From Candidatus Hydrogenedentota bacterium (GTDB lineage Bacteria; Hydrogenedentota; Hydrogenedentia; Hydrogenedentales; JAEUWI01): a stretch of DNA of 57,759 nucleotides. The stretch covers positions 1-57,759 of the forward strand of contig JAHBVV010000038.1 in assembly GCA_019637335.1 (NCBI GenBank), written 5' to 3'. A program made the position numbers and the translations under genes. Shown here in pieces: positions 19,862 through 45,321 of the stretch (within the stretch, counting starts at the first letter, position 1; the number at the start of each line of letters is the position of its first letter). Under the pieces are notes generated by a model. That model was not told the origin of the DNA. It did not search any database and was given only the letters and a program-made list of their open reading frames with translations.

Positions 19862-20293
19862 GTATTTCTTTAGCCGTGTGAAGTAGTCACCCTCGTCCCA
19901 CCCAACGGTGGCGGCTTTCGGTGATCGAACACCGTCATCCCCACGAAAGTGGCTGTCGATTGACTTAACTCACCCTACACTATGGAAGAAATGAGCAGAT
20001 CCGTCATCCCCGCGAACGCGGGGATCCAGCAACGCGATCGCACAAACCTCCGAATTCCACTGGATTCCCGCGTGCGCGGGAATGACGCCTCAGGTCAATA
20101 ACACAGAATTGTAGGTTCTGAGGCGTCCTCACCAGTTAAACCGGCAGCCCCGAATGTGGGGATCCAGAGACCATACAACGTTAACCTCGCATACCCTCTG
20201 GATTCCCGCCTTCGCGGGAATGACGAATACTTTCAATGTAAGTGAGGCATCTCATATCGGGGAACGCCTTACTTCATACAGCTAAAGTATTAC
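19862..20293. mobile_element. IS66-type MITE candidate, copy 1 (~430 bp)
   Basis: The left end (minor variant GTATTTCTTTAGCCGTG) and right end (reverse complement GTAATACTTTAGCTGTATG) form imperfect terminal inverted repeats. They are flanked by CATCCTGT (19854-19861) and CTTCCTGT (20294-20301), an 8-bp target duplication with one mismatch. The inside carries several REP-like hairpins of the form ATTCCCGCGNNNGCGGGAAT and no frame. An inverted, closely related copy lies at 44890-45321. GTAA ends and 8-bp duplications are known traits of the IS66 family. Confidence 0.75.
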
Positions 20294-20323
20294 CTTCCTG
20301 TTATGGCCCCGCGCGGCGCGCGC

Positions 20324-23083
20324 CTACTCCGCCGCCCTCGGCGCGTGGCCCTTTTTCCCGGAATGGCCGTATTCATCCGTATCCAGAAACTCCTGGTGGT
20401 CCATCGGCACAAAATCATTCAGCGCTTCCCAGTTGAACTCGCGATCAAAGGGGTCGAAGGCCTTTTGCGGGTCGAAAATCTCCGTGTTCACCGGAAGCGC
20501 ATTGTACGGCTCGGCGTTGCGCGGCGCCATCGTAAACATGTCGCCCAAATCCGACGCAAAGGCGTCGTACTGGTTCAGCGGCGGCAGCCCGAAAACCGCG
20601 AAGGCGGTCTTCAGCATGCTCCCGATGCTCGTGTGCGTGTGGGAGACATAGCCCGCGCGCGCGTAGGGGCTGATCACCATGCAGATCGACCGGTGCGCGT
20701 CCACCGAGTCCACATAGCCCTGCGCGTCGTCCTCCGTCACCATAATCACCGTCTCCGACCAGAAGGGGCTGTGGCTAATCAGTTCCACCAGCCGCCCCAG
20801 CGCCAGGTCGTTGTCGCTCATGTACGATCCCCAGAAGGGGTAGCCGTCGTCCGGGCGCTCGCCCGCGCCATGATCGTTCGGCAACATCACGCTGACGAAC
20901 TGCGGGAACGGCTCCTTCCCCGACAGCCACTTCTCCTTGAATTCCTCCTCGAACATATCCATGCGGAACTGGTCGGGGATGTTGGTGTTGTACGTCGCAA
21001 ACTTGCGCGAGGTCCGCTCGAAGAGCGACTGCGGCATCGGATAGTTAATCGGCAGCCGGATCCCCGTGTACCGGTACTCCTGCTCTTCGTCCTGCGGCTT
21101 GAACTCGAAGCCCAGCCCGAAGTTGTAGAAACTCACGCCGTTCCGTTCGAAATGCTCCCAGATCGCGCCGCCCTCGTTGTAATCCTCGGGGTAGATTGCC
21201 CCGGACGACCCGATAAACGCGAAATTGCCCGGCCCATCGCCCTGCGACGACTCCCCAATGCGCGCTTCCATGAATTCGTTGGGGTAGGTCCCCACGAGCC
21301 AGCGGTGCCCGTCCACGCTGTGATCGGAATCGCAGTAGAAGTTGTCGTTCACCGCAAATCGCTTCGCCAGCGCCACGTGATTCGGCATCAGCAGCACGTC
21401 CTTGACCGTGCGCGACCCGTCCTTGTTGCTGACGTCGATCGGCTTGCCCAGCCGGCAGAACTCGGGATTGCCCCGGCCGCCCGGCAGCGCGCCGAACACC
21501 TCGTCGTAGGTCCGGTTCTCCTTGCAGACGTAGATCACGTGCTTGATGGGGCTCTTCCACGCCCCGGACGGCGCCGGAACCGGGTGGCCCGGCTCGCGCG
21601 TCATCTCGGGCGCGTCAAACCGGACATTGTTCCGCACGACCCGCGCCGTCGCCTCGGCGAGCGCGTCCTCGCCCTGGGGAATCGGGATCACGTTGATGTA
21701 GCCGCGCATCAGCGCGCCGATCCCCGTGGGATCGCCCGGCGTGTGGCCGGGACCCGCGTTCGGGCCGGATCCGATCCCTTTCGCGCACGCCACATACAGC
21801 CGTTTCCCGTCCGGCGACACCGCCAGCTTGCTCGGGAACCACGCCGTGGGGATATGTCCCAGCACCTTTCGGTCGGAAAGCCGGATCACGCCAATCGCGT
21901 TGATCCCGGCCTCCGCCACATACAGGATTTCCTGATCGGGCGACAGCGCCACGCCAAACGGGATCATCCCGCGGAATTTGTCCGCCCGCGGATCGAGGGC
22001 GAGGTCGATATCCGGCTCGCGCTCGCCCGTCGCCGTGTTGATAACGGTGATGCTGTCGTTGCTCCCGTTCGAAACATACACATGATCGCCCGTCGCCGCC
22101 ATGCTGTTCGGGCTGCTGCCGCCCACCGCCGGAAAGTCCTCCAGCTGCTCGCCCACCAGATGGCCCGTCTTGTGCTTCGCCGTCACCATGGGCGTCGCGC
22201 CGTCCAGCGCCACGGTCCACACCGACATGGCGCGGATATCATTCGGATCGCCCAGCGCCGGCGCGATCACGCCATCGACAGTCACCCCTTCCTCGGCCTC
22301 CTTCGACGGCACGCCAAAGGGCGGGAAGGGCAGCTTCGCCGGATTGCCCGCCTCATCCTTCATATAGGCGTACTCGAACATCCCCACGTTCGCGACATAC
22401 GCCGACGACTCATCGGGCGAAAGCGCGATCCCGAAGGGATAGCGCCCCACCGCCACGGACGCCGCCACCGCGCGCGCCTCCACATCGATGGCGAGCATCC
22501 GGAAATTCGACTGATCCACGCCGTACAGATATTTTCCGTCCGATCGCAGCCGGATATCCCCGATATACCCGTGCGTGAAGTCGCCATCGTCGGTCTGGTG
22601 CGCGCAGTCAATTTCGAACAGCTTCTCCCGCGACGCCAGATCAAACGCGTACACCTTCCACGCCCGGCCGCCGGCCACATACAGCGTCTTGCTGTCCGCG
22701 CTGATCGCCAGCCCCATAAACGCCGCGTCCAGCACCCCCTCCCCCTCCGAGACATCCTCCGGAATATAAGACACCACCGGCGCCGCCGGATCCGCCAGAT
22801 CCAGAATCGAAAGCTGCGGCCCGTCGCTGCTCGCCGCCACCGCCCAGCGCCCGTCCGGGCTCATCGTCAGCCCGTAGGGATGCGGACGCACCCGGTGCAT
22901 CTGCCCCGACGGCGTAATCAGACGCCCGTTCGGCAGCACCGTCTCCCCCGTCTCGTTCCGCTCCACATAGCGCATTCCGGAAGGCGAAGACATGATGGGT
23001 TGTGCGTGGGCCGCGCCCGCCGCAAGAGCACAGGCCAGCAGCACGCCGGGCCGGAATCGAAAAAAAACACGGAAGCAATACAT
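20324..23083 (-). CDS. Exported YVTN beta-propeller plus phosphoesterase-domain protein
   Basis: A 919-residue exported protein with a signal peptide ending AGAAHAQ. The first half holds propeller repeats (LTMSPDGRWAVAAS, LAISADSKTLYVAGG, IALSPDESSAYVANVG, VALSPDQEILYVAEAG). The second half is a PF04185-type phosphoesterase related to phospholipase C and acid phosphatases (IKHVIYVCKENRTYDEVFG, FYCDSDHSVDGHRW, MLPNDHGAG, VTEDDAQGYVDSVDAHRS). This fusion is common in Planctomycetes-like and Acidobacterial genomes. It probably hydrolyses a phosphoester outside the cytoplasm; the substrate is unknown. I chose ATG 23083 because AAGGA lies 8 nt upstream and the signal peptide starts there. Confidence 0.88.
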   Translation of the reverse strand: MYCFRVFFRFRPGVLLACALAAGAAHAQPIMSSPSGMRYVERNETGETVLPNGRLITPSGQMHRVRPHPYGLTMSPDGRWAVAASSDGPQLSILDLADPAAPVVSYIPEDVSEGEGVLDAAFMGLAISADSKTLYVAGGRAWKVYAFDLASREKLFEIDCAHQTDDGDFTHGYIGDIRLRSDGKYLYGVDQSNFRMLAIDVEARAVAASVAVGRYPFGIALSPDESSAYVANVGMFEYAYMKDEAGNPAKLPFPPFGVPSKEAEEGVTVDGVIAPALGDPNDIRAMSVWTVALDGATPMVTAKHKTGHLVGEQLEDFPAVGGSSPNSMAATGDHVYVSNGSNDSITVINTATGEREPDIDLALDPRADKFRGMIPFGVALSPDQEILYVAEAGINAIGVIRLSDRKVLGHIPTAWFPSKLAVSPDGKRLYVACAKGIGSGPNAGPGHTPGDPTGIGALMRGYINVIPIPQGEDALAEATARVVRNNVRFDAPEMTREPGHPVPAPSGAWKSPIKHVIYVCKENRTYDEVFGALPGGRGNPEFCRLGKPIDVSNKDGSRTVKDVLLMPNHVALAKRFAVNDNFYCDSDHSVDGHRWLVGTYPNEFMEARIGESSQGDGPGNFAFIGSSGAIYPEDYNEGGAIWEHFERNGVSFYNFGLGFEFKPQDEEQEYRYTGIRLPINYPMPQSLFERTSRKFATYNTNIPDQFRMDMFEEEFKEKWLSGKEPFPQFVSVMLPNDHGAGERPDDGYPFWGSYMSDNDLALGRLVELISHSPFWSETVIMVTEDDAQGYVDSVDAHRSICMVISPYARAGYVSHTHTSIGSMLKTAFAVFGLPPLNQYDAFASDLGDMFTMAPRNAEPYNALPVNTEIFDPQKAFDPFDREFNWEALNDFVPMDHQEFLDTDEYGHSGKKGHAPRAAE

Positions 23084-23270
23084 CAAAACATCCTTCAAGG
23101 CTAACGCGCGCGAGACAATTGGAAGCATGCGCGTTATTCTACAGCGAACCGGCAGCCGATCACACGCCCCCGGGCAAGCTGCAAAGCCCTCTTTCCGAAA
23201 ACGTTGACGCCGACCCCTTTTGAGGGTACACTGTCTCAGTGCAGTCGTGAGTCGGTGAAGGGAGCGGATC

Positions 23271-23972
23271 ATGGCATGGGATAAAGAACACCCACCCGAA
23301 GAGTTCTGGGGATCGGACCTACACTTCGGCTGGGGACAATGGTTACTCTCTCAACGAATTTGGTTCGCCTGCGTAGCGGCCTTCGTGCTGTTAATCATCA
23401 GCCTTCTTACAGCGTTGTTACTTCTTGGAGCGAACGAGTTTTTTCCGGGATTACTTTTCGCGGGCGTCATGGCATTCGCCTTCGGTCAGCTCTATGCCCT
23501 TTCCAACGTTATTCAGCACTGTCACCAGCTCTACTACCTCTTCAAAGACAATTCCTTCCAAGTGCGCGTGGACTTTGCGGGACCAATTGCGTTTTGGAGG
23601 GTTCTTCTGAGACGCAAATCGGAAGGCACTACGCGATTTACTCAGGATGAAATCAGAATGGTGTCGATTTCGCAAGAGCAGAAGCTCTTTCCGCGCGAAA
23701 GGACGTCTGCGCGAGCGATTCGGCTCAAGTTCACCCTGTTCAACGGGGAAGAGTACCTCCACACCCAAATGCTCAACGTGGAACCCCACTTCGAACTTGT
23801 CGAAGACCTGCGCCAGTTCCACCGGTTGCTTGATCGGCTTGAGTCCGTACTTGGCCCGGATCGAATCGAGTCGCCCGAAAGTCTCGCAAGCGCGAGGTGT
23901 TCAATACAGCAAAGCCTGCGAGACGCTGGACTTCCATCGGAAAACAACGTCCCGCCTGTCCAAACGCCGTAA
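23271..23972 (+). CDS. Two-TM membrane protein with a cytosolic PH-like region
   Basis: A 233-residue protein with two adjacent membrane helices (about residues 28-53 and 56-78) and a soluble part that could be a PH-like beta domain, then a helix. I do not recognise a characterised family. GGGAG lies about 7 nt before the ATG at 23271. The codon use is less GC3-biased than its neighbours. Its last eight or so codons (NVPPVQTP) are encoded by the first copy of the dispersed repeat at 23948, so the natural C-terminus was probably altered when that repeat arrived. It is divergent from the phosphoesterase gene. Confidence 0.65.
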   Translation: MAWDKEHPPEEFWGSDLHFGWGQWLLSQRIWFACVAAFVLLIISLLTALLLLGANEFFPGLLFAGVMAFAFGQLYALSNVIQHCHQLYYLFKDNSFQVRVDFAGPIAFWRVLLRRKSEGTTRFTQDEIRMVSISQEQKLFPRERTSARAIRLKFTLFNGEEYLHTQMLNVEPHFELVEDLRQFHRLLDRLESVLGPDRIESPESLASARCSIQQSLRDAGLPSENNVPPVQTP

Positions 23973-24088
23973 GGCGCAAATGTAGGATAGGCGTCCCGCC
24001 TGTCCACCGCGCCGAAAGGCGCCAGAGTAGGCTGAAAGTCCGCCGCAGGCGGAATAGCCGTCCCGCCTGTCCACCGCGCCAACGGCGC
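23948..24088. repeat. Three copies of a ~30-bp repeat with GCGCC/GGCGC hairpin
   Basis: Copies at 23948-23977, 23992-24023 and 24059-24088 begin CGTCCCGCCTGTCCA and end in a small hairpin such as GCGCCGAAAGGCGC. A related CGTCCCGCCTGTGT occurs near 43480. Confidence 0.85.
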
Positions 24089-24143
24089 ACAAGGATCCCG
24101 GACATTTACGCCGCGGCAGGACAAGCGCAAGACTTCATGTGAT

Positions 24144-24293
24144 CGTTGCGCTTGTGAAATGGCCCCGGTCCCCATTGCGCTCCGGTGTTGTGGCAGGCAA
24201 ACACGCCTGCGCTCCCAGCCTGGCGCACTCTCGTCGTAGTATCGCGGCAAGCCAACAAAAAGTCTGACTCAACTTCATACGGCTAAAGAATTC
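24144..24293. mobile_element. Degenerate IS66-type MITE candidate, copy 4
   Basis: The right end (reverse complement GGAATTCTTTAGCCGTATG) matches the ends of copies 1-3. A perfect 8-bp direct repeat, CATGTGAT, lies at 24136-24143 and 24294-24301, but the left terminal repeat is barely recognisable. The inside holds a GCAGGC/GCCTGC hairpin. The remaining gap up to 24551 shows nothing else recognisable. Confidence 0.5.
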
Positions 24294-24551
24294 CATGTGA
24301 TGTTGGTCGCGGTCATTGCGTCAAACTCGACCCTTAATCGGCCTCCGGCGGACTTCCAGCCCACGCCGGCGACCGACGGCGGACCGGGGCTACCCCGACC
24401 GGAGGACGCACCCCCGCTTTGGGCCGCGTGCCGATTGAAAAGCGTGGCCTGTCTTGCGTGGAGATGGATTCTCCAGGATCGGGCGTATGTGCGCGGGTAC
24501 GTCTTTTGCCTGCGCTGGCGATTGCTTCAGCATGCTGGCCTTTTGGCCGGA

Positions 24552-26720
24552 TTATTGCCCCCCATCTTCGATGAAGCCATGGTATTTGCCCATGTAATAG
24601 GCGAGGAGGTAGTGAAATCCCGGGCGCAGGTTGGTCCCGTCGCCGCCGGCCGCGAGTTTCCAGGGGTCCCAGTCCCAGTAATTCTCCTGGCGCTCGTCGA
24701 TGGGGAAGGCGTAGCCGTCGATTCCGCCGCCGATCGTGGGTTCGTCGCCGCCGTGGGAAACGAAGGGGACCATGTCGGTGCGGTGGGCGTTGGAGATGGG
24801 CCATTCGACGAGATCGAGGGGGTACCGCTGGAGGGTGTCGACGGCGTCCGTGTAACACGCGGGTGGCGGCGATAGGTCGGTCGTGCGCCATTGATCCGTT
24901 CGGAACTGGCCGCGGGCGCAGGCGCCATAGATGAAATTGGTGAAGGCGTTTTTCTCGAGTTGCTCATATTCCCAGTGGATCCGGATGGCGTACTGGTACA
25001 TGCTGAGCAGGGTCAGATCGGTCTCGTAGCGGATGAGGTGGTAGTAATTCATGAAGGCCATGTTGTCGTCGGGCTGGTGGCCGGGGTAGTTGGGGCCGGG
25101 GAGCATCCTGGGCTGGGTCATGCCGTTCATGCCGTAGCCGTGGTCGAAGGCGAGCTTGCGGTATTCCTCCCGGTATTTGGGATCGCCGGTGATATGGTGG
25201 GCGATGGCGAGGTAGGTGAGGATGCTGTAGGAGTTAAGCCCGCGCTCGGCGTGCCAGTGGGGGTTTCGGTTGAGGTCGTCGGGCGAGAAGTGGCCCCAGC
25301 GGGTGGGCTTGCCGTCATAGTCGACGATGTTGTAGTCGTGGATGAGAACGTGGTCCATGATGCGGCGGACGACCGCGCGCACCGCCTCTTTTTCAGCCTC
25401 GCTCTCGCAGACACGGTCGTAGTAGATGGCGTATCCGAAGAAGTGGCCATCGAGTTCGTCGGAACTCGCGTCGCACTTCCAATACCACTGTCCCGTCTTA
25501 TCGGTGGGGACGCGGCGCTCCAGGATTTTCCAGAGCGCGTCGCGCTGATTCCGCCGGATGTCGTAGTCGCGGTCGTAGATTTCGTTGGGATCGGGATCGG
25601 TAATGGGAACGACGTTGCGGGCGATGAGGCCCTCGGGCCCGCCGTAGGGGCCCCCCTGCGTGACCTCGCTGAGGAAGGCCAGGGCGCGGAAGGCGTTGTG
25701 GGCGTACTGGCGGTATTTCTCCTCTTTTTCGGCGGCCCAGGCAAAGCTGACCGCGCCGAGGTAGAGCCCGGTGTTGAAGCCGTCGTTGTCGGAATAGCGA
25801 GGCGTGGCCGTGCTCTTATCGCCGGGCGTCGCCAGGGTGGCGGGGTTTACATAGCCGAATTCGGTGCGGCGGTGATACTTCTCAATCTCATCTTCGTAGA
25901 AGGCGGCTTTCTCGGCGAGCGTCATGGGCTCCTGGCGAATGCAGGAGACGCCGCGCGCGGTGGCGAACCAGGCGTTGCCCTCCTGGTCGATGGCGACGTC
26001 ATTCACATGGTTGTCCACCAGCCAGCGGCCTCCGTGGCGGAAGCGCCACTGCCCGTCGCGGTATTGGATGGCGCCGTTGGCGGTTCCGAACCATACCCCG
26101 CTCGCGCCGGCGGCGATGCGGGTGAAGTCGTTGTAGGGCAGGCCGTCCGCGCCGGTAAAGAGCCGCCAATCACCCTCCGCGATCCGGAACCCGACCCCCT
26201 GCGGCGCGGCGAACCAGAGGCGTCCTTCGGCGTCATAGGTCACGTCGCGCACATCGACCGGCGCCCAGCGCGTGTCGCCCTGGCGGGGCAGCACGTGCGC
26301 CCAGGACGCGCCGTCGAAGCGGAAGAGGCCGGCTTCCGCGGCCACCGCGATTTCGTCGCCGCGCCGGGCCACGCCGCGTATGCGGGAAATGTCCACGCCC
26401 AAGTCCTGGAGGCCGTCCCCGGCGGGGAGCGGGGCAATTCCAGGACCGAAAGAGGGAGCGTCTTCGTCAATGCCCCAGCGGTCGCCGCCGAGCAGGTAGA
26501 TGGCGCCCGATTCGTCCATGGCGCGCACCGCGCCACCGGCGTCGATCTGGATCCGCGCGATGTGCGCGCCGGGCAGCCCGCTTTCCGCGCCATAGGCGAC
26601 GTGGCGCTGTTGAATGTACGGGTGGTCGGTCAGCGGTAGTTCGGCCGCGGCCGCGGCCGCCAGGATGGCGACGGAAAATGCACGCAGGAACGGAGTGATC
26701 GGGGAGATTGAACGGAACAT
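24552..26720 (-). CDS. Exported protein: regulator-propeller repeats plus alpha-helical C-terminal domain
   Basis: A 722-residue protein with a signal peptide ending AAAAAAELP. Residues of about 40-280 hold beta-propeller blades like the two-component-regulator propeller (GRLWFAAPQGVGF, GVWFGTANGAIQYRDGQW, GNAWFATARGVSC). The remaining 430 or so residues are rich in Trp, Tyr and His and mainly helical in appearance, perhaps an alpha/alpha barrel as in glycan-active enzymes (HWHAERGLNSYSILTYLA, PGHQPDDNMAFMNYYHLIR). No assigned activity. The ATG at 26720 has AAGGA 8 nt upstream. It follows the recA-headed run after a 165-bp gap and may or may not be co-transcribed. Confidence 0.7.
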   Translation of the reverse strand: MFRSISPITPFLRAFSVAILAAAAAAELPLTDHPYIQQRHVAYGAESGLPGAHIARIQIDAGGAVRAMDESGAIYLLGGDRWGIDEDAPSFGPGIAPLPAGDGLQDLGVDISRIRGVARRGDEIAVAAEAGLFRFDGASWAHVLPRQGDTRWAPVDVRDVTYDAEGRLWFAAPQGVGFRIAEGDWRLFTGADGLPYNDFTRIAAGASGVWFGTANGAIQYRDGQWRFRHGGRWLVDNHVNDVAIDQEGNAWFATARGVSCIRQEPMTLAEKAAFYEDEIEKYHRRTEFGYVNPATLATPGDKSTATPRYSDNDGFNTGLYLGAVSFAWAAEKEEKYRQYAHNAFRALAFLSEVTQGGPYGGPEGLIARNVVPITDPDPNEIYDRDYDIRRNQRDALWKILERRVPTDKTGQWYWKCDASSDELDGHFFGYAIYYDRVCESEAEKEAVRAVVRRIMDHVLIHDYNIVDYDGKPTRWGHFSPDDLNRNPHWHAERGLNSYSILTYLAIAHHITGDPKYREEYRKLAFDHGYGMNGMTQPRMLPGPNYPGHQPDDNMAFMNYYHLIRYETDLTLLSMYQYAIRIHWEYEQLEKNAFTNFIYGACARGQFRTDQWRTTDLSPPPACYTDAVDTLQRYPLDLVEWPISNAHRTDMVPFVSHGGDEPTIGGGIDGYAFPIDERQENYWDWDPWKLAAGGDGTNLRPGFHYLLAYYMGKYHGFIEDGGQ

Positions 26721-26885
26721 GACTGCATTCCTTTACTTCGCAGGGCGTACTGCGCGTTACGATTCAGCGGTGAACGGTCACCCGCTCGCGCGCGGGTGCG
26801 CGGGTGCGCGCCGCCGGCCGGACACGGGCCGGTTGGACTCCGTTGAGCCAACCCGATGCCCCGGGATTAACGTCGTGGCAAGGGG

Positions 26886-27614
26886 TCAGCTTTCGACGGT
26901 TCCGGAGAATCCTGGCTGCGGATCACCCAATTCGGCTTCAATCTTCGCGTGTAACTCGTTCAGCGCGTCCTGTATACGCTGACGCCGGTCTTCGATCACC
27001 TCGCGGTCCATGGATTCGGCGGGCGGTATCGGCGGCGCGTAGGCGTGGATGACCCGCGAGAAGGGCCTGGGCACGGCCATGCGATCCCAGGTGCGCAAGC
27101 GCCAGCTACGGCTGACGGCGGCGGCCAGGGGCACGACGGGGACGCCGGTGCGCGCGGAGAGGATGGCGAGGCCGGGCTGCGCCTGGCGGCGTGGTCCCCG
27201 GGGGCCGTCCATGGTGAGGCCGACGCATTCCACGAGTTCGAGGGCCTTTTCGAGCTGGCGCAGCAGGCCGGCGCCGCCCCGGGAAGTGGAACCGCGGAGG
27301 CACTCGATGTCGAAGCCGGCGGTGAGGCGCGCGGCGAGTTCGCCGTCGAAGCTGAAGCTGGATGCGGAGTGAAAGTTGGAACCGCGGTGGAGATACAGCG
27401 CGTAGGTGGCGGTCTCGTGCCAGATGCCGACGATGGCGCGGCCGCGGGGCTCGCGGGTCTGGAGGAGGTATTGTTCACCACGGACTTCGTGGCGGCAGGT
27501 GTGGAGGATACCCTTCAGAAGATTGACAACGATGGGCGGGATGACGGCAAGCTGGGCCCGCTGCTTGCGGGAATACGCCACCGGCGAGCTGTATTGGAGG
27601 TCCGGCAGTTTCAC
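26886..27614 (-). CDS. DUF374 lysophospholipid acyltransferase family protein
   Basis: A 242-residue DUF374 protein related to the LpxL/PlsC superfamily. Family blocks are IVGIWHETATYAL (with the conserved HE), SFSFDGELAARL, LRGSTSRGGAGLLRQL, LTMDGPRGPRR and LSARTGVPVVPLAAA. It probably transfers an acyl chain to a lipid-A-like or other glycolipid at the inner membrane. The start is GTG at 27614, overlapping the ketopantoate reductase stop (GTGA), so translation is coupled. Confidence 0.85.
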   Translation of the reverse strand: MKLPDLQYSSPVAYSRKQRAQLAVIPPIVVNLLKGILHTCRHEVRGEQYLLQTREPRGRAIVGIWHETATYALYLHRGSNFHSASSFSFDGELAARLTAGFDIECLRGSTSRGGAGLLRQLEKALELVECVGLTMDGPRGPRRQAQPGLAILSARTGVPVVPLAAAVSRSWRLRTWDRMAVPRPFSRVIHAYAPPIPPAESMDREVIEDRRQRIQDALNELHAKIEAELGDPQPGFSGTVES

Positions 27615-28486
27615 CGCTGCTCGAGCGCCTTGATGATCTGGTAAATAACGCGCGTGCGCGGGGTGGGGAGCGAGGCCAGCTGGGCCCGGCGCAACACTTC
27701 GCCGCTGATGGCCTCGATCTCGGTACGCTTTCCGGCGCGTACATCCTGCAACATACTGGAAATGTTCTCTCGCGTCGCTTCACAGACGGATTCGGCCGTT
27801 TCCACGATACTGTGCTCGAATCGATACCCCTCCGTGGCGGCCACCTTGACGGCCTCGACGACGAGATCGCGCATGAGCTGGCGCGTATCCTTGAGATCGA
27901 GCAGGCGTCCGTTGGGGAGATCGAGTATGGCGGTAAGCGGATTGATTCCGGCGCAAATCGCAAGCTTCTCCCAGAGCAGCTGCCCGGGCGACTCGGTGAC
28001 CCGGGTGTTGAAACCGGCGGAATTGAGCAACAGCGCGGCGGCATGCGGGTCGCACGAGGTCCAGGCCCCGATACTGGTGAGACCCTCGGCGACGTGGCGC
28101 GTGTGGCCCTCGGCGATGAGCGTGGCGGCTTCCGAGGTGGCGCCGGCGAGCACACGGGCGCTGCCCGCGAGCGCGCAGAGCATCTCCACATTGCCGAGGC
28201 CGTTTTGCAGGGTGAGCACGGGCCCGTCGGGCGGAAGCTTGAGCTGGCCCGTACAGTGGGACTTGGTCAACACAACGATCAAATCCTGGCCGGCGGGGAT
28301 CCGGGCCGTCACGGCGACGTTCACCGCGCGCGGCTCGCCGGCATGCTCGATCACGATCCCGTTTCGCGCGAGGCGGTCCGCGCGTCTCGGGTCGTGATCG
28401 ACGAGCACGGTCCGGACACCGCTCTCCGCCAGTCGCCCGGCAAAGAGACAGCCCAGCGCACCCGGTCCTACGACGGCTACCTTCAT
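27611..28486 (-). CDS. panE: 2-dehydropantoate 2-reductase (ketopantoate reductase)
   Basis: A 291-residue cytosolic enzyme converting 2-dehydropantoate to pantoate with NADPH for coenzyme A synthesis. The Rossmann motif is VAVVGPGALGCLFAGRLAESG. Conserved blocks are VLTKSH, LTLQNGLGNVE, WEKLAICAGINPLTAI with the catalytic Lys, and SSMLQDVRAGKRTEIEAI near the C-terminus. It lies between the SPOR protein gene (75 bp upstream) and the DUF374 gene (4-bp overlap). The family is broad, so another 2-oxo acid substrate is possible. Confidence 0.9.
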   Translation of the reverse strand: MKVAVVGPGALGCLFAGRLAESGVRTVLVDHDPRRADRLARNGIVIEHAGEPRAVNVAVTARIPAGQDLIVVLTKSHCTGQLKLPPDGPVLTLQNGLGNVEMLCALAGSARVLAGATSEAATLIAEGHTRHVAEGLTSIGAWTSCDPHAAALLLNSAGFNTRVTESPGQLLWEKLAICAGINPLTAILDLPNGRLLDLKDTRQLMRDLVVEAVKVAATEGYRFEHSIVETAESVCEATRENISSMLQDVRAGKRTEIEAISGEVLRRAQLASLPTPRTRVIYQIIKALEQR

Positions 28487-28561
28487 TACTCAGCTCCACA
28501 CCGTGTCCGTCGTTCGCAACACGGCAACGAAATTCAGATTAACCCCCCCGCGCCACGCACT

Positions 28562-37153: not shown

Positions 37154-37172
37154 TCGGGTTGCGCGGCGGCGA

Positions 37173-37201
37173 TTGACTGCGGCAACCTCCCGTGGGATAA
37201 T
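37173..37201 (+). promoter_or_regulatory. Sigma70-like promoter of the VapBC pair; transcript predicted leaderless
   Basis: TTGACT (37173-37178), a 17-bp spacer and GATAAT (37196-37201). Seven bases downstream is the A of the antitoxin ATG (37208), so the expected start of transcription coincides with the start codon. No ribosome-binding site is visible. Confidence 0.6.
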
Positions 37202-37207
37202 TGCGCC

Positions 37208-37441: not shown

Positions 37442-37869
37442 TTCTGCTGGATACCAACGTATTGGTCTACGCGGACGATCGCCATTCAACCTTCTTCAAC
37501 TGGTCGAGACAGATCATTGCCGACGCATCATCAGTTGAGTCCGCTGTGACCAATCCTATCGTGATCGCCGAGCTTTGTGTTGGAGAAACGGACCCTGCCC
37601 CTATCCCCGCGCGTATTGAGGCGTGGGGTGTGATTCTCATCGATCTTCCGGTCGCCGCGTCGCTGTTGTGCGCGAACGCGTACAGGCTTTACCGTCAACG
37701 AAGACTGGCGGACTCCGGCAGGCCGGCCCCCGATGTGCCCCTTCCAGATTTTTTCATCGGAGCGCATGCCGCCATCATGGGGTGGGAATTGGCCACGGCT
37801 GATCCCGGGCGTTTCAAGACGTACTTCCCCGAAGTAACGCTTCTGCTGCCAGAGCAAACGGGCACGTAA
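37438..37869 (+). CDS. VapC-like PIN-domain toxin
   Basis: A 143-residue PIN endoribonuclease. The catalytic Asp is in ILLDTNVLVY, an acidic residue in VIAELCVGE, and the last acidic group in LPDFFIGAHAAIMGWELATAD. The GTG start overlaps the antitoxin stop, so synthesis depends on translation of the antitoxin. Downstream (37870-37977) is a short convergent gap to the secretin gene with no clear terminator. Confidence 0.88.
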   Translation: MILLDTNVLVYADDRHSTFFNWSRQIIADASSVESAVTNPIVIAELCVGETDPAPIPARIEAWGVILIDLPVAASLLCANAYRLYRQRRLADSGRPAPDVPLPDFFIGAHAAIMGWELATADPGRFKTYFPEVTLLLPEQTGT

Positions 37870-37977
37870 CGGAGCCTCCGTAGGCCGGCAGATCCCAGAA
37901 CCTATCGCGGCGCCGCCCGCGCTCCCAGCCTTGATCACGCTTGTCGCTGTGCCAGGCGCCCGGGGGCGCCCCGCTTG

Positions 37978-40713
37978 TCAGGGCTCCGCGGGGGCGGAGG
38001 GGTTGAGCGGCGCCGTATCCCCTTCCCCGCCGGGTACATCCCGGTAGCGCGGGACGAGCGGGGTCAGGTCGTCGTCAACGATCAGATCGCGCTCGAGCTC
38101 CATGGCGAGGTCCATCACGGCGGTCACCCGGGCCTCGGGCGCGCGGGGATGGCGCCGAAGCACAACGCGGACCTGCGCGGGCGCCTCGGTGAAGAGGCCG
38201 CGCAAATCGTCAAGGCTCGCCCGCTCTCCCCCGGCGTGAATATCGCCGCTCTGCCCGACGGCGACCGCGATTTCGTTCTTGCCGGCGGATACGGTGTTCG
38301 CCAGCCGGCCCCAGAGCGATTTCTGGTTGTGGCGGTGCGCGCTGGAAATCGATTCCTCGGCGCGCGCGAGCATGGCGGCGTGCGGGTCGGTGAACTCATC
38401 AACGATGGTGGGGGTAATGAAAATCAGCAGCGAGCTCTTCTGGGACTGCTTGTTCGGGTAACGGAACAGGCGGCCGATACCCGGCAGATCGCCCAGGAAC
38501 GGGGTGCGGGTCTCCGTGGTCCCGGCGCGGTCGCGGCGGAGGCCGCCGAGGACCACCGTGTCACCGGACTGGATCCGGAGCTGGGTTTCGGCGCGGCGGA
38601 CGGTCTTCTGCGGAACGGTGGAGGCCTGATCGCTGGCGAGGACGCGCACTTCCACGAAGGTGCTGTCCTCGGCGCTGATGTCGAGGAGAATGTTTTCCTT
38701 CGACGTGATGCGCGGGAGGACCTTGAGAATCGTCCCCACGTCAATGAACTCGACGCGGTTGGTGTTGTTCACGGCGCCGAGGTTGTTGAAGCTGGTGTTG
38801 AAGAAGGTGGTCGCGGAAACGAAGGGCACCTGGGTGGCGTTCTCGAAGATGGCCTCCTCCCCATCCTGCACGGCGACCCGCGGCGAGGAGAGAACCGTCG
38901 CCTTATTCTTGCGATCAAGGTATTCGAGTGTCACGGCAAGGTTGGCGCCCTCAATGCGGTCCACCACGTTTTCGCCGTCGATATTGGTCACGATCGGGCG
39001 CACGATACGACCGGCGCCGTCCAATTGAAGCGCGCCGTAGAGCGGCACGGCGTAGGGCAACTGGCCGACGTTGAGGTTGCCTTCCTCCGGATTGAAGCCG
39101 CTGCCGCCGTCGAAAAAGATGGGCGAGCGCCCGCTGGAACCGAAGTAGGACCAGTTGATGTTGAATTCCCGCTCCACATCGGATCCGACTTCAACAATAA
39201 AGGCCTCGATCTGCACCTGCTTGCGCTGCACGTCGGAGGTGGCGATAAATCGGTCGATTTCCTCGAGCTTGGCCGCGATGGCGGTGACGGTGATCTGGTG
39301 CACGTCCTTGTTCACCACGATCTCGCCCATCTCCGGGGGCACCCGGGCCTCGATGGCGTCCGCCAGGAAATCGAGGTCGGCGTAATCGACGATCCACGTG
39401 CGCGATTCCAGGGCACGATCGAGCACCGCGATCAGATCCGCGATCTCCTCGACCCGCCCGGGCACGTCCTTTACCGTCACCGAATTGTTGCGCGGGTCGA
39501 CATGCATGACGCCGCGATCGGAGAGGGCGACTTCGAGGTAGTCGAGGGTGTCGAGCGCGAAAACATGATCCAGATGAAAAGTCCGCGCGTCCAGCGGCGT
39601 ATCCACGGCGCGCAGGGCCTCGGCCATGCGATCGAGCACAGCGGGCTGGTCCCAGGCGATGAGGGTATTGGTCCGGCTGTCGGGCAGGAGGCTGCCGGCG
39701 GGGCTGAGCATGCCGGCAAGCGCGGCCTGCACATCGGCAAAGGCGGCGTGGGCGACCCGGAATTCACGGCTCTTCATCGGCGCGTCCAGATCGGCGAGCA
39801 ATTCCTCAACAATCCGGAGGTTGTCCGGCGTATCCCAGACGTGCAGCTGGCGCGACGGCGCGTCGGCGACCAGCCGCCCCTTACTGGAAAGAAGCCGGGC
39901 GACGACGGGCTCGACAGCGCGGGTATCCGTGTGCTGGAGGGCGAAGCGGCGCGACTCCAGCTTGCCGAACTCGCGGCGCTGCCACTCTGCAACCGTCATG
40001 ACGTAGAGATACCCTTTTCCCGCGTCATACTCGTAGTAAATGTCATGGAACTTCAGGATTTCCATGGCCTGCTGCGGCGTGGCTTCGGTAATCCAGAATT
40101 CCAGCGTCTTGCCGCGGGCCTCCTCCGAGACGAGGATATTCCAAAGCGTGGCCAGCCGGATATCGTCGAGGAATTCGGCGACCGTTCGGGGGCCCATCAG
40201 GTCGATGAGAACCTCGCCTCCTTCCGGGAGCGGGCCGTATTCGACCTCGCGGTCGAGTATTACCTCAAAAGGCTGTGCGGCGGCCCCCGATTGGGCGGGC
40301 GGCGCCGCGCTCCATTCCGGCAATACGCCGGTTGCGGACTGCGGCGGCGCGGCGGCGCCGGTGATCAGCCCGGGTTGCATCGCCGCGCCGTCGCCGCGGC
40401 CCGTTACGGTCCGCACCGGCGGGCCCGCACTGGCGGGAGGCTGCTCGCCCGCTTCCTGGCGCTGGCGGGAATCGGCGTCCCCGGTCGCGGCGCGGTCCGG
40501 TTCGGCGGCGGGCTGTGCGAAACGCCCGTTTCCGGAAAAGCGCGTGGGCGTTTCGCGTCCGGGATCGCCGCCCGTGCCGAGGCCGGGGTCGATGAGATCG
40601 GGAATGCCGGGACGCGGGCGCGGCGAGGTGGGCGACTGCCCCTGCGCCATGGCGAGGGCGGCGACGGCCATGGCGGCCAGCACGGCGGCAATTAGTGCAC
40701 GAGCATTGCGCAT
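37978..40713 (-). CDS. Secretin (GspD/PilQ family outer-membrane channel)
   Basis: A 911-residue protein with a signal peptide ending ALAMAQG and a long disordered N-terminal linker (to about residue 145). N-domains follow (LIDLMGPRTVAEFLDDIRLATLWN, then several NolW-like repeats). The secretin core has VVLGGLRRDRAG, TPFLGDLPGIGRLF and SSLLIFITPTIV. It then continues for about 160 residues, longer than most. It forms the outer-membrane pore for type II secretion or type IV pili. No other secretion or pilus assembly genes adjoin it; the pilin-like protein lies 10 kb away. GGGAAG lies 5 nt before the ATG at 40713. Confidence 0.92.
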   Translation of the reverse strand: MRNARALIAAVLAAMAVAALAMAQGQSPTSPRPRPGIPDLIDPGLGTGGDPGRETPTRFSGNGRFAQPAAEPDRAATGDADSRQRQEAGEQPPASAGPPVRTVTGRGDGAAMQPGLITGAAAPPQSATGVLPEWSAAPPAQSGAAAQPFEVILDREVEYGPLPEGGEVLIDLMGPRTVAEFLDDIRLATLWNILVSEEARGKTLEFWITEATPQQAMEILKFHDIYYEYDAGKGYLYVMTVAEWQRREFGKLESRRFALQHTDTRAVEPVVARLLSSKGRLVADAPSRQLHVWDTPDNLRIVEELLADLDAPMKSREFRVAHAAFADVQAALAGMLSPAGSLLPDSRTNTLIAWDQPAVLDRMAEALRAVDTPLDARTFHLDHVFALDTLDYLEVALSDRGVMHVDPRNNSVTVKDVPGRVEEIADLIAVLDRALESRTWIVDYADLDFLADAIEARVPPEMGEIVVNKDVHQITVTAIAAKLEEIDRFIATSDVQRKQVQIEAFIVEVGSDVEREFNINWSYFGSSGRSPIFFDGGSGFNPEEGNLNVGQLPYAVPLYGALQLDGAGRIVRPIVTNIDGENVVDRIEGANLAVTLEYLDRKNKATVLSSPRVAVQDGEEAIFENATQVPFVSATTFFNTSFNNLGAVNNTNRVEFIDVGTILKVLPRITSKENILLDISAEDSTFVEVRVLASDQASTVPQKTVRRAETQLRIQSGDTVVLGGLRRDRAGTTETRTPFLGDLPGIGRLFRYPNKQSQKSSLLIFITPTIVDEFTDPHAAMLARAEESISSAHRHNQKSLWGRLANTVSAGKNEIAVAVGQSGDIHAGGERASLDDLRGLFTEAPAQVRVVLRRHPRAPEARVTAVMDLAMELERDLIVDDDLTPLVPRYRDVPGGEGDTAPLNPSAPAEP

Positions 40714-40830
40714 ACGCTTCCCAACCCGAGACGGGGCGCGGGGATAAGGGCCCGACCGCTGGTCTCCGGTTCCCGTTTGACTCCGGGCGCTATGATACCC
40801 GCCCGCGCATGGCGAATAGCAAACTGGCGT

Positions 40831-42063
40831 TCATCGCGGGGGCCGGCGCTTGAGGAGGGCGAGCGCTTCGACGTGCGGCGTGTGCGGGAACAGGTCGAAG
40901 GCTTCGAGCGCGGCGAGGTCGTAGGCCTCCGCGAGAACGGCCATTTCGCGGGCGAGCAGCTTGGGATTGCAGGAAACGTAGAGGATGTGTTCCGGCAGAA
41001 ACTCCAACAGGCGCTTGATGACCTTGGGATGCAACGCCGAGCGCGGCGGATCGAGAATGACCATGGCGCCCGCCGCGAAGCTTCCGGCTTCGCGCTGCGC
41101 GTTCAGGTAGCGCTCGGTCCGCGCGGTGATAAAGGCAACGTTATCGATGCCGTTTACCCGCGCGTTGTGGCGCCCGTCCTCGGAGGCGGGTTCCACCTCC
41201 TCCACGGACCACACGTGACTGACCAGATCGCTGCACGCGAAGGCGATGCCGCCGGCCCCGCCGTAGAGGTCGTAAAGCGAGTCCGGGGCCACGGCGCGAA
41301 CGTGGTTGCGGATGGCCGCGTAGAGGTTCTCGGTCGCCAGGGGATTCGTCTGGAAAAAGCTGAGGGGCGAAATCCGGAAGTCCAGCCGCCGCGTCGCTTC
41401 GCCATCCGGCAGCAGGAGCGTCTCGGTAATGTGCGGCGCGCCCGCCAGCAGCTCCAGGCGTTCCGCCGTGGCCACATCGCTCCGGCCCGTGAAATAGCCG
41501 CGGTATACACTCGTGGCGCCGTAGACCGACTGCGCAAGGTCCACGAAGGGGCCGCAATCCAATTCGCCTTCGTGCGTGATGAGCACCACCATTTTCTCGC
41601 CGGAGCGCTTGCCGTCACGCACCAGGAGATAGCGCAGGACGCCGTCCGTCGTGCGGTTGTCCCACGCGCGGATGTCCTTCTCGCGGTACCACTGGCGGGT
41701 GGCCCGGAGCAGCGCGCCGGCGCCCTCGGGGCCGATGTGGCACGCGTCGATGTCCAGCGGCCAGTACCACTGCCCCTTCTTCTTGAAACCCAGAACGGTC
41801 TCGCGCACAAAATCTTTCGGGGGCGGCTCGGGGTAGCGCATGCGATCAAACGCGGGATCGATCTTATTGCGGTAGTGCCAGATCACGGGCGAGGGCGTGA
41901 CCGGGACCGGCGCGGTCCAGTAATCCTGGAAGAGGGCGCCGAGCATTTCGGATTTCTCGGCCACCTGACGCGCATAGGGCACATCCTGGCTCTTGCATCC
42001 ACCACACTCCCCGAAATGAGGACAGCGTACGTCGGTCGAGGCGGCTGGGGTGGTGTCTGACAT
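40831..42063 (-). CDS. TrmA/RlmD-type RNA (uracil-C5) methyltransferase
   Basis: A 410-residue SAM-dependent enzyme. It has the Fe-S ligands C14, C20 and C23 (CPHFGECGGC) and C108 (DIDACHI), the SAM-binding stretch YDLYGGAGGIAFACSD, the ILDPPRSALHPK motif and the catalytic Cys in LYVSCNP. There is no N-terminal TRAM domain, so it resembles the short RlmCD/RlmD-like branch. The target is probably a uracil in 23S rRNA (or tRNA); the exact position cannot be told from sequence. ATG 42063 has only a weak AGG upstream. Confidence 0.88.
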   Translation of the reverse strand: MSDTTPAASTDVRCPHFGECGGCKSQDVPYARQVAEKSEMLGALFQDYWTAPVPVTPSPVIWHYRNKIDPAFDRMRYPEPPPKDFVRETVLGFKKKGQWYWPLDIDACHIGPEGAGALLRATRQWYREKDIRAWDNRTTDGVLRYLLVRDGKRSGEKMVVLITHEGELDCGPFVDLAQSVYGATSVYRGYFTGRSDVATAERLELLAGAPHITETLLLPDGEATRRLDFRISPLSFFQTNPLATENLYAAIRNHVRAVAPDSLYDLYGGAGGIAFACSDLVSHVWSVEEVEPASEDGRHNARVNGIDNVAFITARTERYLNAQREAGSFAAGAMVILDPPRSALHPKVIKRLLEFLPEHILYVSCNPKLLAREMAVLAEAYDLAALEAFDLFPHTPHVEALALLKRRPPR

Positions 42064-42212
42064 GCGAAATGGACCTGGTGGGGTTGCGGGGGGAGGCGCC
42101 GAGGGGAAACGGCGCGAAGGCATAGGATACCGTCTGTTCGCGCGCGGCGCAAACCGGTCAGGCGGTAGCGGGTGCGGACCTGATATTACTGATGAATTGC
42201 GAGCGGCATGAA

Positions 42213-42398
42213 GCGGGCTTTCAGCCCTCATCGCCTTTTGGATCCCTTTGCCTGGACCGATGGCTCAGATTTGAAGCAGGCCTTCGGCGCTGAATACCTG
42301 AATATCGTTGCTTCAGCGCCGAAGGCGCCGGATCATATCAGCCTGGGCCGCAGGCCCAGGAAAAATGACGACGATTTCGGACAGGGCTGAAAGCCCGT
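42213..42398. repeat. Multi-hairpin intergenic element
   Basis: It is bounded by a 16-bp inverted repeat (GCGGGCTTTCAGCCCT at 42213 and its near-complement at 42383-42398). Inside are a 14-bp perfect stem (CCTTCGGCGCTGAA, 42281-42294 with 42312-42325) and an 8-bp stem with a GCA loop (CCTGGGCC, 42342-42360). There is no reading frame. It could be transcribed downstream of nothing in particular, or be another non-autonomous element. Confidence 0.75.
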
Positions 42399-42431
42399 AT
42401 CATACTGGGTTGCCGTCGAACCCAAAAAACG

Positions 42432-42611
42432 GTAACACTTTAGCGGTCTGAAGTGCGGATCAGTATGTGTTTTTGTTTATGGAGCCGGTGTGCATGGAGC
42501 GCCGGCGGCGCAATCTGCCGGCGGGCCGCCGGCGCTCCATGGTTGCGCGTAGCCTTTATTCAGCAAGTCGCTCTGGTTTGGCCACTGTACTTCGATCGGC
42601 TAAAGTGATAC
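42432..42611. mobile_element. IS66-type MITE candidate, copy 3 (~180 bp) with a 17-bp hairpin
   Basis: The ends GTAACACTTTAGC and (reverse complement) GTATCACTTTAGC form a terminal inverted repeat. They are flanked by CAAAAAACG (42423-42431) and CAAAAATCG (42612-42620), an 8-9 bp duplication with one mismatch. The inside has a perfect 17-bp stem (42493-42509 with 42525-42541; left arm CATGGAGCGCCGGCGGC) unrelated to the inside of copies 1 and 2. Confidence 0.7.
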
Positions 42612-42612
42612 C

Positions 42613-43586
42613 AAAAATCGAGACTTTTCTGGTTCATCCGGTTTTGGCGTACTTGGAACGACGATTAACGTCTGGCCGAACGAAGATAACCCCAGTCTCT
42701 ACATGGGCGGCCAACGTGGGTTAGCCTTCCAGGCTGACGCAGCGCGAGCGGCGCCTTCGAACGGCCCATCAACGCCACAAAACGCAGCCCCGGACTCCCA
42801 AGGCGATACGATACTTCCCTCATTCGTGACCAATCGCGGTTGAACTCATCGAATTCCTTCTTTATCCGTGCAATCCGTGTTATCCGTGGTCAAGAATCCA
42901 GATCGCGGCCAAACGCCGCGCTGAGTCCATTCGCGCTCACTTCCAGTTCAAACAAATCTTTTGTGTTCTCTGTGCCCTTTGTGGCTCCTGATCCAATCCC
43001 CCCGCGCATCAACCCCGCATCCCGACCCGGATCCATTCCATACACTTTGGCGTGGCCCCCTTCAAAGACTTCTTCTCTTCGCGCCCTTGTGGTGATCCCT
43101 TCTTCGGTCGCGGCCAGCGGTTGCTCAAAGGAATCCGCGCCACGCTCCATTAACGTCCCGACCGCCGGACAACAATTCCCGGTCACTTTCGACAGAGCCG
43201 CCGTGGATCCAAAATCTCCGCAATCCTTCAACGCCCGCCGACGTGGCTTGGCCTTCCAGGCGGACGCGGGGCGCCGCCCGGATCCGGCGAGGCTCGTCGG
43301 GCCTGAAATCGCTCGCCGTGAATTTCCCCTGCGCCACCCGTTAAGGATGAAAGGCCGGCTGCTTCGCAACCGGTACACAGCCGGGACGGCTGTGCCACGT
43401 TCTTTGCACGCTTCACCTGGGTTTCTAAGAGTACCTTTCAAGGAATGTGGCACAGGTCGACGACGCGCCGTGGTGGGCGTCCCGCCTGTGTGTATTTTCG
43501 GCGCAGCCTGGAGGCTGGTCTGGCGGGCGGCGGGGGTGCTATAAGTGGCGGTATCGACTGAACATCATTTACTGGAGCGCGAATCC
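42613..43586. other. Gene-free repeat-derived spacer
   Basis: Two degenerate 9-bp-period triplets (ATCCGTG-based at 42864-42890, TTTGTG-based at 42959-42985), a CACAGCC/GGCTGTG hairpin near 43376-43393, and a CGTCCCGCCTGTGT fragment near 43480. Frames here give spurious repeat translations (FFIRAIRVIRG) and no protein signature. Confidence 0.6.
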
Positions 43587-44768
43587 ATGCTGAACGGGCT
43601 GCTTTCGTTACTTTTACTCGCCCCATTCTCCGGGGCGGGAATCGAGATTCATGCGGACTATCCGGGAGCGAATATTGCCGTGGCGCGCCACGAGGACGAT
43701 ACCGTTTACCTGTCCCAGGAATTGCGGGACACGTCCGGGTGGTGGTTCTACTGGAATTTCGGCGCGGATGGCGCGCCGGGCGAGACCGTAACGTTCCGCT
43801 TCACCGACGGGAACGTCATCGGGACCCGGGGGCCGGCGATCAGCACGGACGCGGGGGCCACGTGGCGCTGGCTCGGCACGGACACGGTGGAAAAGACCGA
43901 GGACGGCGTGTTGTTCCGCTACACGTTCGATGGGACCGCGCCGTCCGTCCGGTTCGCGTTTGCGCCGCCCTACCAGGCCGCCGATCTCGATCGCTTTCTC
44001 GCGCGGCAGGCGGCGGGCGCGCATCTCGCGGTGGAGACGCTGTGTGAAAGCGAGAAGGGGCGTCCCGTACCCCGGGTGCGCATCGGGCGCCTGGACGGCG
44101 GGGCCGAACACCGGCTCCTGCTGACGGCGCGGCACCACAGCTGCGAATCGATGGCGAGCTACGTGCTGGAAGGCCTGATGGCGGCCCTGCTCGGGGACGG
44201 CGAGGACGCGGCCTGGTTCCGGGCGAACGCCGAGGCCCTGGTAATACCGATGGTGGATATGGACGGCGTAGAGGACGGCGACCAAGGGAAGAACCGCATT
44301 CCCCGGGATCACGGGCGCGACTACCAGGGCGATAGCATCTACAAAAGCACGCGCGCGATCCGCGAGACGGCCCCGGGGTGGTCCGAGGGAAGGCTTCGAC
44401 TCGTGATGGACTTCCATTGTCCGCATATCCGCGGGGGCGATAACGAGCGGATCTACCAGGTGGGGCGTTCGGATCCGGCGCATTGGGCGGAACAGCAGCG
44501 TTTCGCGGGTCTTTTGGCCGGACAACCGAACCTGCCGCTCCCCTATGCGGCGTCCAACGACCTGCCGTTCGGGGAAAGCTGGAACCAACCGAGTAATTAT
44601 ACGGCGGGCGCGGGGATCTTTCAGTGGGCGGCGGGCCTGGACGGGGTACGCTGCGCGACGGCGTTCGAGATCCCGTATGCAAACGCGGGCGAGGCCACGA
44701 TCACGCCGGACAATGCGCGGGCCTTCGGCGCGGCGATGATCCCGGCGATTCGCGCGTGGCTGGAGTGA
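43587..44768 (+). CDS. Secreted M14-family zinc carboxypeptidase-like protein
   Basis: A 393-residue protein with a signal peptide (MLNGLLSLLLLAPFSGAG). A beta-sandwich N-terminal domain of about 125 residues (SGWWFYWNFG) precedes the M14 domain. The zinc ligands are probably His184 and Glu187 (RHHSCES) and His279 (MDFHCPH), with Glu363 (AFEIPY) as the general base. The family includes cytosolic-carboxypeptidase-like and succinylglutamate desuccinylase-like members, so the substrate may not be a peptide C-terminus. I chose ATG 43587 because GGAG lies 10 nt upstream and the signal starts there. Confidence 0.83.
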   Translation: MLNGLLSLLLLAPFSGAGIEIHADYPGANIAVARHEDDTVYLSQELRDTSGWWFYWNFGADGAPGETVTFRFTDGNVIGTRGPAISTDAGATWRWLGTDTVEKTEDGVLFRYTFDGTAPSVRFAFAPPYQAADLDRFLARQAAGAHLAVETLCESEKGRPVPRVRIGRLDGGAEHRLLLTARHHSCESMASYVLEGLMAALLGDGEDAAWFRANAEALVIPMVDMDGVEDGDQGKNRIPRDHGRDYQGDSIYKSTRAIRETAPGWSEGRLRLVMDFHCPHIRGGDNERIYQVGRSDPAHWAEQQRFAGLLAGQPNLPLPYAASNDLPFGESWNQPSNYTAGAGIFQWAAGLDGVRCATAFEIPYANAGEATITPDNARAFGAAMIPAIRAWLE

Positions 44769-44771
44769 GTT

Positions 44772-44799
44772 GGCTTCAGGCTGTAGGCTTTAGGGTGGA
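44772..44799. repeat. Degenerate 7-bp-period repeat (four units)
   Basis: Units GCTTCAG, GCTGTAG, GCTTTAG and GGTGGAG lie just after the M14 stop. They share the core of the CTGTAGG array at 4982-5072. Confidence 0.6.
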
Positions 44800-44889
44800 G
44801 ACTATGGGTTGGCGATTGTTTGGGGGTTGGGGCGATTGTGGCGTGTGGATGCGGTATACTCTCGGCTTGTGATTGTCGTTTCAGAAAAC

Positions 44890-45321
44890 GCAATACTTCA
44901 GCCGTCTGAAGTAAGGCGTTCGCCGATACGAGATGCCTTCATTACACCGGATGTATTCGTCATTCCCGCGAAGGCGGGAATCCAGAGGGTTTGCGAGGGT
45001 AGCGTTGCAAGGTCTCTGGATCCCCACTTTCGGGGCTGTCGGTTTAACTGATGCGGACGCCTCAAAACCTACAAGTTTGTGCTACTGTCTTACAGCGTCA
45101 TTCCCGCGAAAGCGGGAATCCAGTGGAATTCGGAGGTTTGTGCGATCGCGTTGCTGGATCCCCGCGTTCGCGGGGATGACGGATCGGCTCATTCCTTCCA
45201 TAGTGTAGGGTGAGTTAAGTAAACCGACAGCCCCTTTCGTGGGGATGACGGTTTTCGAGCACGGAGAGCCGCCACCGTCGGGTGCGACGAGGGTGACTAC
45301 TTCAGACGGCTAAAGAATTAC
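44890..45321. mobile_element. IS66-type MITE candidate, copy 2 (~430 bp, inverted relative to copy 1)
   Basis: The ends GCAATACTTCAGCCGTCTG and (reverse complement) GTAATTCTTTAGCCGTCTG form terminal inverted repeats. They are flanked by a perfect 8-bp duplication, CAGAAAAC (44882-44889 and 45322-45329). The inside matches copy 1 in reverse order, including the ATTCCCGCG/CGCGGGAAT hairpins. It sits 25 bp upstream of the penicillin acylase family start codon. Confidence 0.8.

Follow-up and report, generated by a model that had tools for sequence, protein, structure and literature searches.

Background

Among the closest described systems, as far as the cited passages of their open-access reports go, are three kinds of mobile element. 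Among miniature inverted-repeat transposable elements (MITEs), the Cardinium MITE has a resident insertion sequence (IS) parent and IS982-type ends (PMC9769881), and MITEPye1 has IS1182-type ends (PMC11578231). The Tn3-derived inverted-repeat miniature elements, or TIMEs, form mosaic transposons (PMC4133298). Among insertion sequences, ISDge4 of the ISBst12 group, from Deinococcus geothermalis, has one open reading frame (ORF), GTGACTACTCAGCA/GTAACTGCTCAGCA ends and an 8-bp repeat (PMC12898284). Here, we analysed a family of short elements with IS66-type ends in a Candidatus Hydrogenedentota bacterium (assembly GCA_019637335.1), starting from a 57,759-nucleotide stretch, referred to as the window, which is contig 38 (JAHBVV010000038.1) of a 7.16-Mb genome that is in 55 contigs and approximately 96% complete. 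The original prediction, made for this window, proposed four MITEs driven by IS66, with 8–9 bp target duplications and no transposase gene inside. Very probably, the elements are indeed MITEs, with an IS66/ISBst12 transposase acting in trans to mobilize them.

In a search of the open-access literature, with subscription papers and ISfinder outside its scope, MITEs with IS66-type ends were not described in any of the parts of the sources covered, which included PMC9769881, PMC11578231, PMC3189936, PMC10969869, PMC12898284, PMC12888890, PMC6713103, PMC3281130 and PMC9208149.

A genome-wide family of paired ends with 8-bp target duplications

Allowing up to 3 mismatches, the end pattern matched the window 6 times, against 0 in 100 shuffles, and a shorter end pattern matched 10 times, where shuffles averaged 0.75 matches and reached 7 at most. 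Across the whole genome, the strict pattern gave 77+64 matches with up to 3 mismatches, a looser pattern 108+95 and a variant finishing in GCA 45+17, with 0 matches for the reversed pattern used as control in all three cases. The elements were collected from 117 stretches, nearly all of them around the genome end matches listed, so that genome totals are at least the counts given here. A 24-position weight matrix trained on 244 matches and used at a score threshold of 8 produced 280 hits in this DNA, compared with 1 in shuffled and 4 in reversed sequence. After dropping 8 hits that overlapped a stronger one, the remaining 272 ends, with pairing limited to 1.7 kb, formed at least 110 inverted pairs and left 52 ends unpaired, which makes the family far larger than the four elements first noticed. 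A single pair is spurious, combining a stray upstream end with the right end of the resident IS66 element described below, and some of the long pairs are nested or composite. The ends are imperfect, 24 bp long and close to the consensus GTAAYWCTTTAGCSGNMTGAAGYA. Together, the pairs span 45,528 bp, or 0.6% of the genome, with nested pairs counted in full. Contig ends lie within 250 bp of 11 of the 272 ends, where an even spread would give about 1, and some of the intergenic repeats at which the assembly breaks are accounted for by the MITEs.

Many of these pairs are flanked by target duplications. An exact 8-bp flank match was found in 43 of the 110 pairs and an exact 7-bp match in 1, while 66 had no matching stretch of 3–13 bp; counting 8-bp flanks that agree in at least 7 of 8 positions, the number rises to 64 of 110. 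In 1000 partner shuffles, exact 8/8 matches averaged 0.06 (maximum 2) and matches of at least 7/8 averaged 0.26 (maximum 3). Of the 8–9 bp duplications originally proposed, only the 8-bp length survives: no pair among the 110 has an exact 9-bp repeat and a single one, the element at 42432–42611, has a 9-bp repeat with one mismatch, and we therefore rejected 9 bp as a property of the family. Directly outside the duplication, the 43 perfect targets show a weak symmetric preference, with T at position −2 (31 targets) and A two bases beyond the right side (29 targets).

When the two flanks of each of the 64 elements whose duplication reaches at least 7/8 were joined and searched against the fetched DNA, 13 elements proved, by the criteria set, to have an uninterrupted paralogous target running through the junction. 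Ten of these targets keep at least 7 of the 8 duplication bases and 3 keep 4–5 (counted by eye). In the clearest case, C3:7578 compared with C16:61767–61947, the 28 nt around the junction are identical.

These observations bear on whether the repeats are transposons at all, since they might instead be immobile palindromes of the repetitive extragenic palindromic (REP) type, or intergenic repeats spread by recombination. The interiors do fold strongly, with single-strand z-scores of −7.66 (44890–45321) and −5.06 (42432–42611), both better than all of their own shuffles, and a palindrome, TCATTCCCGCGAANGCGGGAATCCAG, that some of the elements contain occurs elsewhere in the genome too (62+65 matches in all). 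However, exact 8-bp duplications abut the ends and uninterrupted targets exist, and recombination makes neither. The elements thus have IS-type ends and target duplications, whereas REPs are bounded by neither. Barring a so far unrecognized route to such duplications, this explanation is rejected, and we give it almost no weight.

Insertions of the MITEs are strongly concentrated between genes. A crude codon-based gene caller, for which the same stretches served as training set, placed 61 of 62 scorable insertions in intergenic DNA, compared with 86 of 310 random positions; the other 2 of the 64 were too close to an edge to be scored. A placement mainly behind converging genes was not seen: where genes were called on both sides (59 insertions), the arrangement was tandem in 34, convergent in 13 and divergent in 12.

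Some insertion sites deserve separate mention. Three elements of different subfamilies, at C25:90624, C27:18444 and C21:68986, have nearly identical flanks, with GCAATCGCATTT on the left and TCGCATTTAAAC or TAACATTTAAAC on the right; in the first two, 23 bp running through the junction are the same, which looks like insertion at a single spot of a repeated target. Elements also abut each other. At C17:137733–138296 (starts 137733 and 138072), a MITE of subfamily FAM2 lies directly beside one of subfamily FAM1 (both described below), and the shared 8-bp duplication GATTTTTG occurs three times; at C1:580692–581229 (starts 580692 and 580924), two MITEs lie around CGAAAGTG, with the boundary shifted by one base.

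A candidate IS66 partner in the same genome

A family search of the genome returned four matches to PF03050. The best of them lies in a complete IS66 element whose ends are those of the MITEs (C4:200366–201890), flanked on either side by GTAA-type family ends, GTAACACTTTAGCCGTCTGAAGCA / GTAACACTTTAGCGGACTGAAGTG, and containing one intact 490-aa frame. In the coordinates of locus L035, this same element spans 2367–3891 and the frame 2411–3883, with the stop codon inside the right end. A single ORF without tnpA or tnpB is the arrangement of the ISBst12 group; the predicted IS66 relationship is upheld, with the partner corrected to the single-ORF, ISBst12 type. The protein scores 279.7 bits against NF033517 (cut-off 180) and 131.8 bits against PF03050 (cut-off 23.1), and zf-IS66 was also matched; a comparison with solved structures gave no match. 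Residues D249, D299 and E420, which we take to be the catalytic DDE triad of IS66, are invariant across five aligned proteins.

A second, decayed IS66 copy extends from about C25:39370 and begins with the same right-end type. It starts directly after a MITE (C25:39140 to about 39370) and its duplication, the 8-bp duplication being shared between the two. The other two PF03050 matches are weak and belong to one IS with a 427-aa frame, present in identical 1437-bp copies at C6:80038–81474 and C26:75628–77064. It was rejected as a driver, as its ends (GATGGAG.../GTTGGTG...) are unrelated to those of the MITEs.

At E ≤1e-20, the C4 transposase has matches in 5 of 40 relatives, this genome included. 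In named genomes, TnpC relatives were found at 28 loci, mostly in Planctomycetota assemblies, with archaea and others also represented and a single Hydrogenedentota assembly carrying a partial relative. Of the 28 loci, 18 were scanned for inverted ends within 400 bp, and GTAA-type ends were present on both sides in 8. Two of these 8, in Rhodopirellula solitaria (L157) and Aporhodopirellula aestuarii (L164), combine GTAAC ends with perfect 8-bp repeats.

The MITEs could alternatively have been driven by some other transposase that the assembly lacks or that has died out, with ends that merely resemble those of IS66. One intact IS66 copy, which lacks a duplication, faces 110 pairs, the genome is only about 96% complete in its 55 contigs, and a driver can vanish after a burst. 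We nevertheless consider a different driver improbable, given that the IS66 and MITE ends agree over 22–29 bp on both sides, that the ISBst12 group makes 8-bp repeats according to the cited passage (PMC12898284), that the two named TnpC relatives have GTAAC ends with perfect 8-bp repeats and that the 1437-bp PF03050-matching IS of this genome has unrelated ends.

Subfamilies and the origin of the interiors

Most of the pairs (87 of 110) fall into five clusters, and the other 23 form groups of two (four groups) or stand single. Median pairwise identities were computed on the members used for each consensus. FAM0 has 26 members with a modal length of 307 bp and a median identity of 0.84; 11 members have perfect duplications and 15 have duplications of at least 7/8. 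The corresponding values are 18 members, 225 bp, 0.92, 7 and 15 for FAM1; 16 members, 332 bp, 0.66, 5 and 6 for FAM2; 14 members, 289 bp, 0.90, 8 and 9 for FAM3; and 13 members, 432 bp, 0.74, 7 and 11 for FAM4. Among the other 23 pairs, 5 duplications are perfect and 8 reach at least 7/8. FAM4 is FAM1 with extra palindrome-containing DNA, and the five clusters therefore hold four largely unrelated interiors on one set of ends: FAM0, FAM1/FAM4, FAM2 and FAM3 have their ends in common, and past the ends, only FAM0 and FAM3 share a GC-rich segment of approximately 40 bp.

Short length with terminal inverted repeats (110 pairs, with cluster modes of 225–432 bp), an 8-bp target duplication and many copies in one genome are all features of MITEs. 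As originally proposed, the elements lack a transposase gene: none was found in the five main clusters, which have no match to the IS66 interior and resemble IS66 at the ends only. The 13 longer mosaics, in which open frames were inspected by eye only and without a family search, are likewise taken to be without one.

Internal deletion of an IS is a usual idea for how MITEs arise, and deletion of full IS66 copies could in principle have given rise to this family while leaving its mode of movement as proposed. FAM0 retains as many as 29 bp from the right end of IS66. Yet the likeness between the MITEs and IS66 is limited to the terminal 22–29 bp on both sides: at E ≤1e-3, matches of the 110 pairs to IS66 are confined to the end motif, save for the pair that contains IS66 itself, and the five consensus sequences give only short, chance-level stretches against the IS66 interior (E ≥0.28). 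Such an origin is not supported and appears unlikely; it would call for a very old deletion followed by later replacement of the interior.

Many of the matches to TCATTCCCGCGAANGCGGGAATCCAG lie within FAM1 and FAM4 elements, including those at 44960–45123 and 20060–20223 in the window. Other copies stand in arrays with a spacing of 138 bp, such as C4:89009–89310 and C3:294360–294661, with no end match listed nearby. The 432-bp and 570-bp elements differ by 138 bp, which is the spacing of TCATTCCCGCGAANGCGGGAATCCAG in the arrays elsewhere. Long mosaics with GCA ends, for example, C1:426306–427922, C1:913519–914733, C1:210818–211929 and C3:373420–374488, contain degenerate repeats of the CACGAATG and CACGAAGG type throughout, and the 1617-bp GCA-end mosaic carries a perfect 8-bp duplication.

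Elements in the window and in related genomes

Three of the four elements first proposed in the window hold, namely 19862–20293, 42432–42611 and 44890–45321, and the remaining one holds only in part. The first is a 432-bp MITE of FAM4 type, identified by both of its ends, their pairing and its similarity to FAM1/FAM4. On one side it abuts an M48 peptidase gene (18549–19856, minus strand) at its start, and on the other it faces the stop of a gene encoding a phosphoesterase domain (20324–23272, minus strand). Its left target duplication, CATCCTGT (19854–19861), matches the right copy, CTTCCTGT (20294–20301), in 7 of 8 positions. The element at 44890–45321, identified by both ends, pairing and FAM4 similarity, is also a 432-bp MITE of FAM4 type, in the opposite orientation. 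It has a perfect duplication, with CAGAAAAC at 44882–44889 and again at 45322–45329 (8/8), and stops 25 bp ahead of the start of a penicillin-amidase gene (45347–47548, plus strand).

The element at 42432–42611 is a 180-bp MITE of FAM3 type with both ends paired and an internal deletion, consisting of FAM3 positions 1–78 and 177–289. Its left duplication, CAAAAAAC (42423–42430), is followed by one extra G and matches the right copy, CAAAAATC (42612–42619), in 7 of 8 positions. The flanks also match in 8 of 9 positions, and this is the sole pair among the 110 to do so. An 8-bp repeat with an extra G at the left edge is likelier than a 9-bp repeat, because 43 pairs are exact at 8 bp and none at 9 bp.

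The proposed element at 24144–24293 is a chimera lacking a left end, not an intact element. It comprises a truncated right half of a FAM0 MITE (24180–24293), with one unpaired end and 81% identity to FAM0 over 24180–24292 (113 nt), and a FAM2-like interior (24091–24184; 79% to FAM2 over 95 nt), whose alignment crosses the claimed boundary at 24144 and the left CATGTGAT without a break. With no left end at 24144, the perfect agreement between the two copies of CATGTGAT (8/8) does not represent a target duplication made by an intact copy. No known RNA family reached its gathering score in the window, and no tRNAs were found there.

Of the genomes compared, this one alone has the family in high copy number. 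Among 68 genomes of the phylum, all from one order, end matches with at most 1 mismatch occurred in 4: 140 here, 2 in G001, which is from the same genus, 1 in G015 and 1 in G051. Both end matches in G001 are paired, one in a 389-bp element without matching flanks and the other in a 297-bp element with 7/8 flanks. In G001 and G002, the 1.5 kb upstream of the orthologous penicillin-amidase gene contain no element match, and the upstream neighbour is not conserved there either; G003 has an orthologue as well, inside which its contig ends.

Proposed mechanism and comparison with known systems

All three checks suggested with the original prediction gave results that favour it: further inverted pairs across the genome, 8-bp flanking repeats far above chance and a resident IS66 element with matching ends. 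The elements carry the ends of the IS66/ISBst12 group and, judged from sequence, work like it, with the driver itself being a candidate. A single transposase would bind the imperfect 24-bp end on either side, move whatever DNA stands between two such ends and join the element to staggered cuts 8 bp apart, which would leave an 8-bp duplication at each insertion. We infer that the C4 transposase, or a relative since lost that had these ends, moved the elements in trans, with the interiors playing a passive part. Recognition of the ends probably needs little beyond the terminal 22–29 bp, which would explain both the four largely unrelated interiors and the mosaics of up to 1.6 kb.

Several observations weigh against movement by an IS66/ISBst12 transposase. 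Flanks match in fewer than 7 of 8 positions in 46 of the 110 pairs, and there are the 52 unpaired ends; overall, not case by case, we attribute these to element age, nesting, mispairing and the ends of contigs. The intact C4 copy has no clear duplication (AAAAAAAA/AAAGTGTC, 3/8), which lowers its standing as an undisturbed insertion but not its family assignment by protein and ends. GTAA ends were absent within 400 bp at 10 of the 18 TnpC loci scanned, comparison of the penicillin-amidase locus in G001–G003 revealed no exact orthologous empty site, and no transposition has been observed.

A further, more tentative idea is that a single-gene IS66 transposase needing an end of only about 24 bp made intergenic repeats a capture platform, on which the four interiors and mosaics of up to 1.6 kb, some of them carrying perfect 8-bp duplications, turned into transposons once bracketed; we see this as possible, though less likely than not. 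If abutting insertion is a property of the enzyme, it would be a route to new MITE families and to composite elements from unrelated repeats. Its size (about 100 pairs), its several interiors and its measurable preference in target choice make the family suited to working out which bases of the end an ISBst12-type transposase requires and whether the interior plays a role.

MITEs that have an IS as parent have been described before; what is new here is the IS66/ISBst12 parentage, the use of one set of ends by several interiors and the abutting insertions. The comparisons below hold for the cited passages of each report. With the ISBst12 group and ISDge4 (PMC12898284), the family shares GTAAC..CTCAGC-type ends, an 8-bp duplication and a partner with a single transposase ORF; unlike ISDge4, the MITEs have no transposase, and the ends agree in type, not letter by letter. 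Like the Cardinium MITE and MITEPye1, they are short, lack a transposase, have IS-type ends and foldback interiors and occur in many intergenic copies, but their parent family is IS66/ISBst12 and one end set serves four largely unrelated interiors. FAM1 and FAM4 resemble REP-type palindromes in containing TCATTCCCGCGAANGCGGGAATCCAG. As in the TIMEs (PMC4133298), the ends alone would mobilize DNA, and mosaics with the same ends vary in size, whereas the TIMEs have 38-bp ends of the Tn3 family and 5–6-bp duplications and the elements described here have 24-bp ends of IS66 type and 8-bp duplications.

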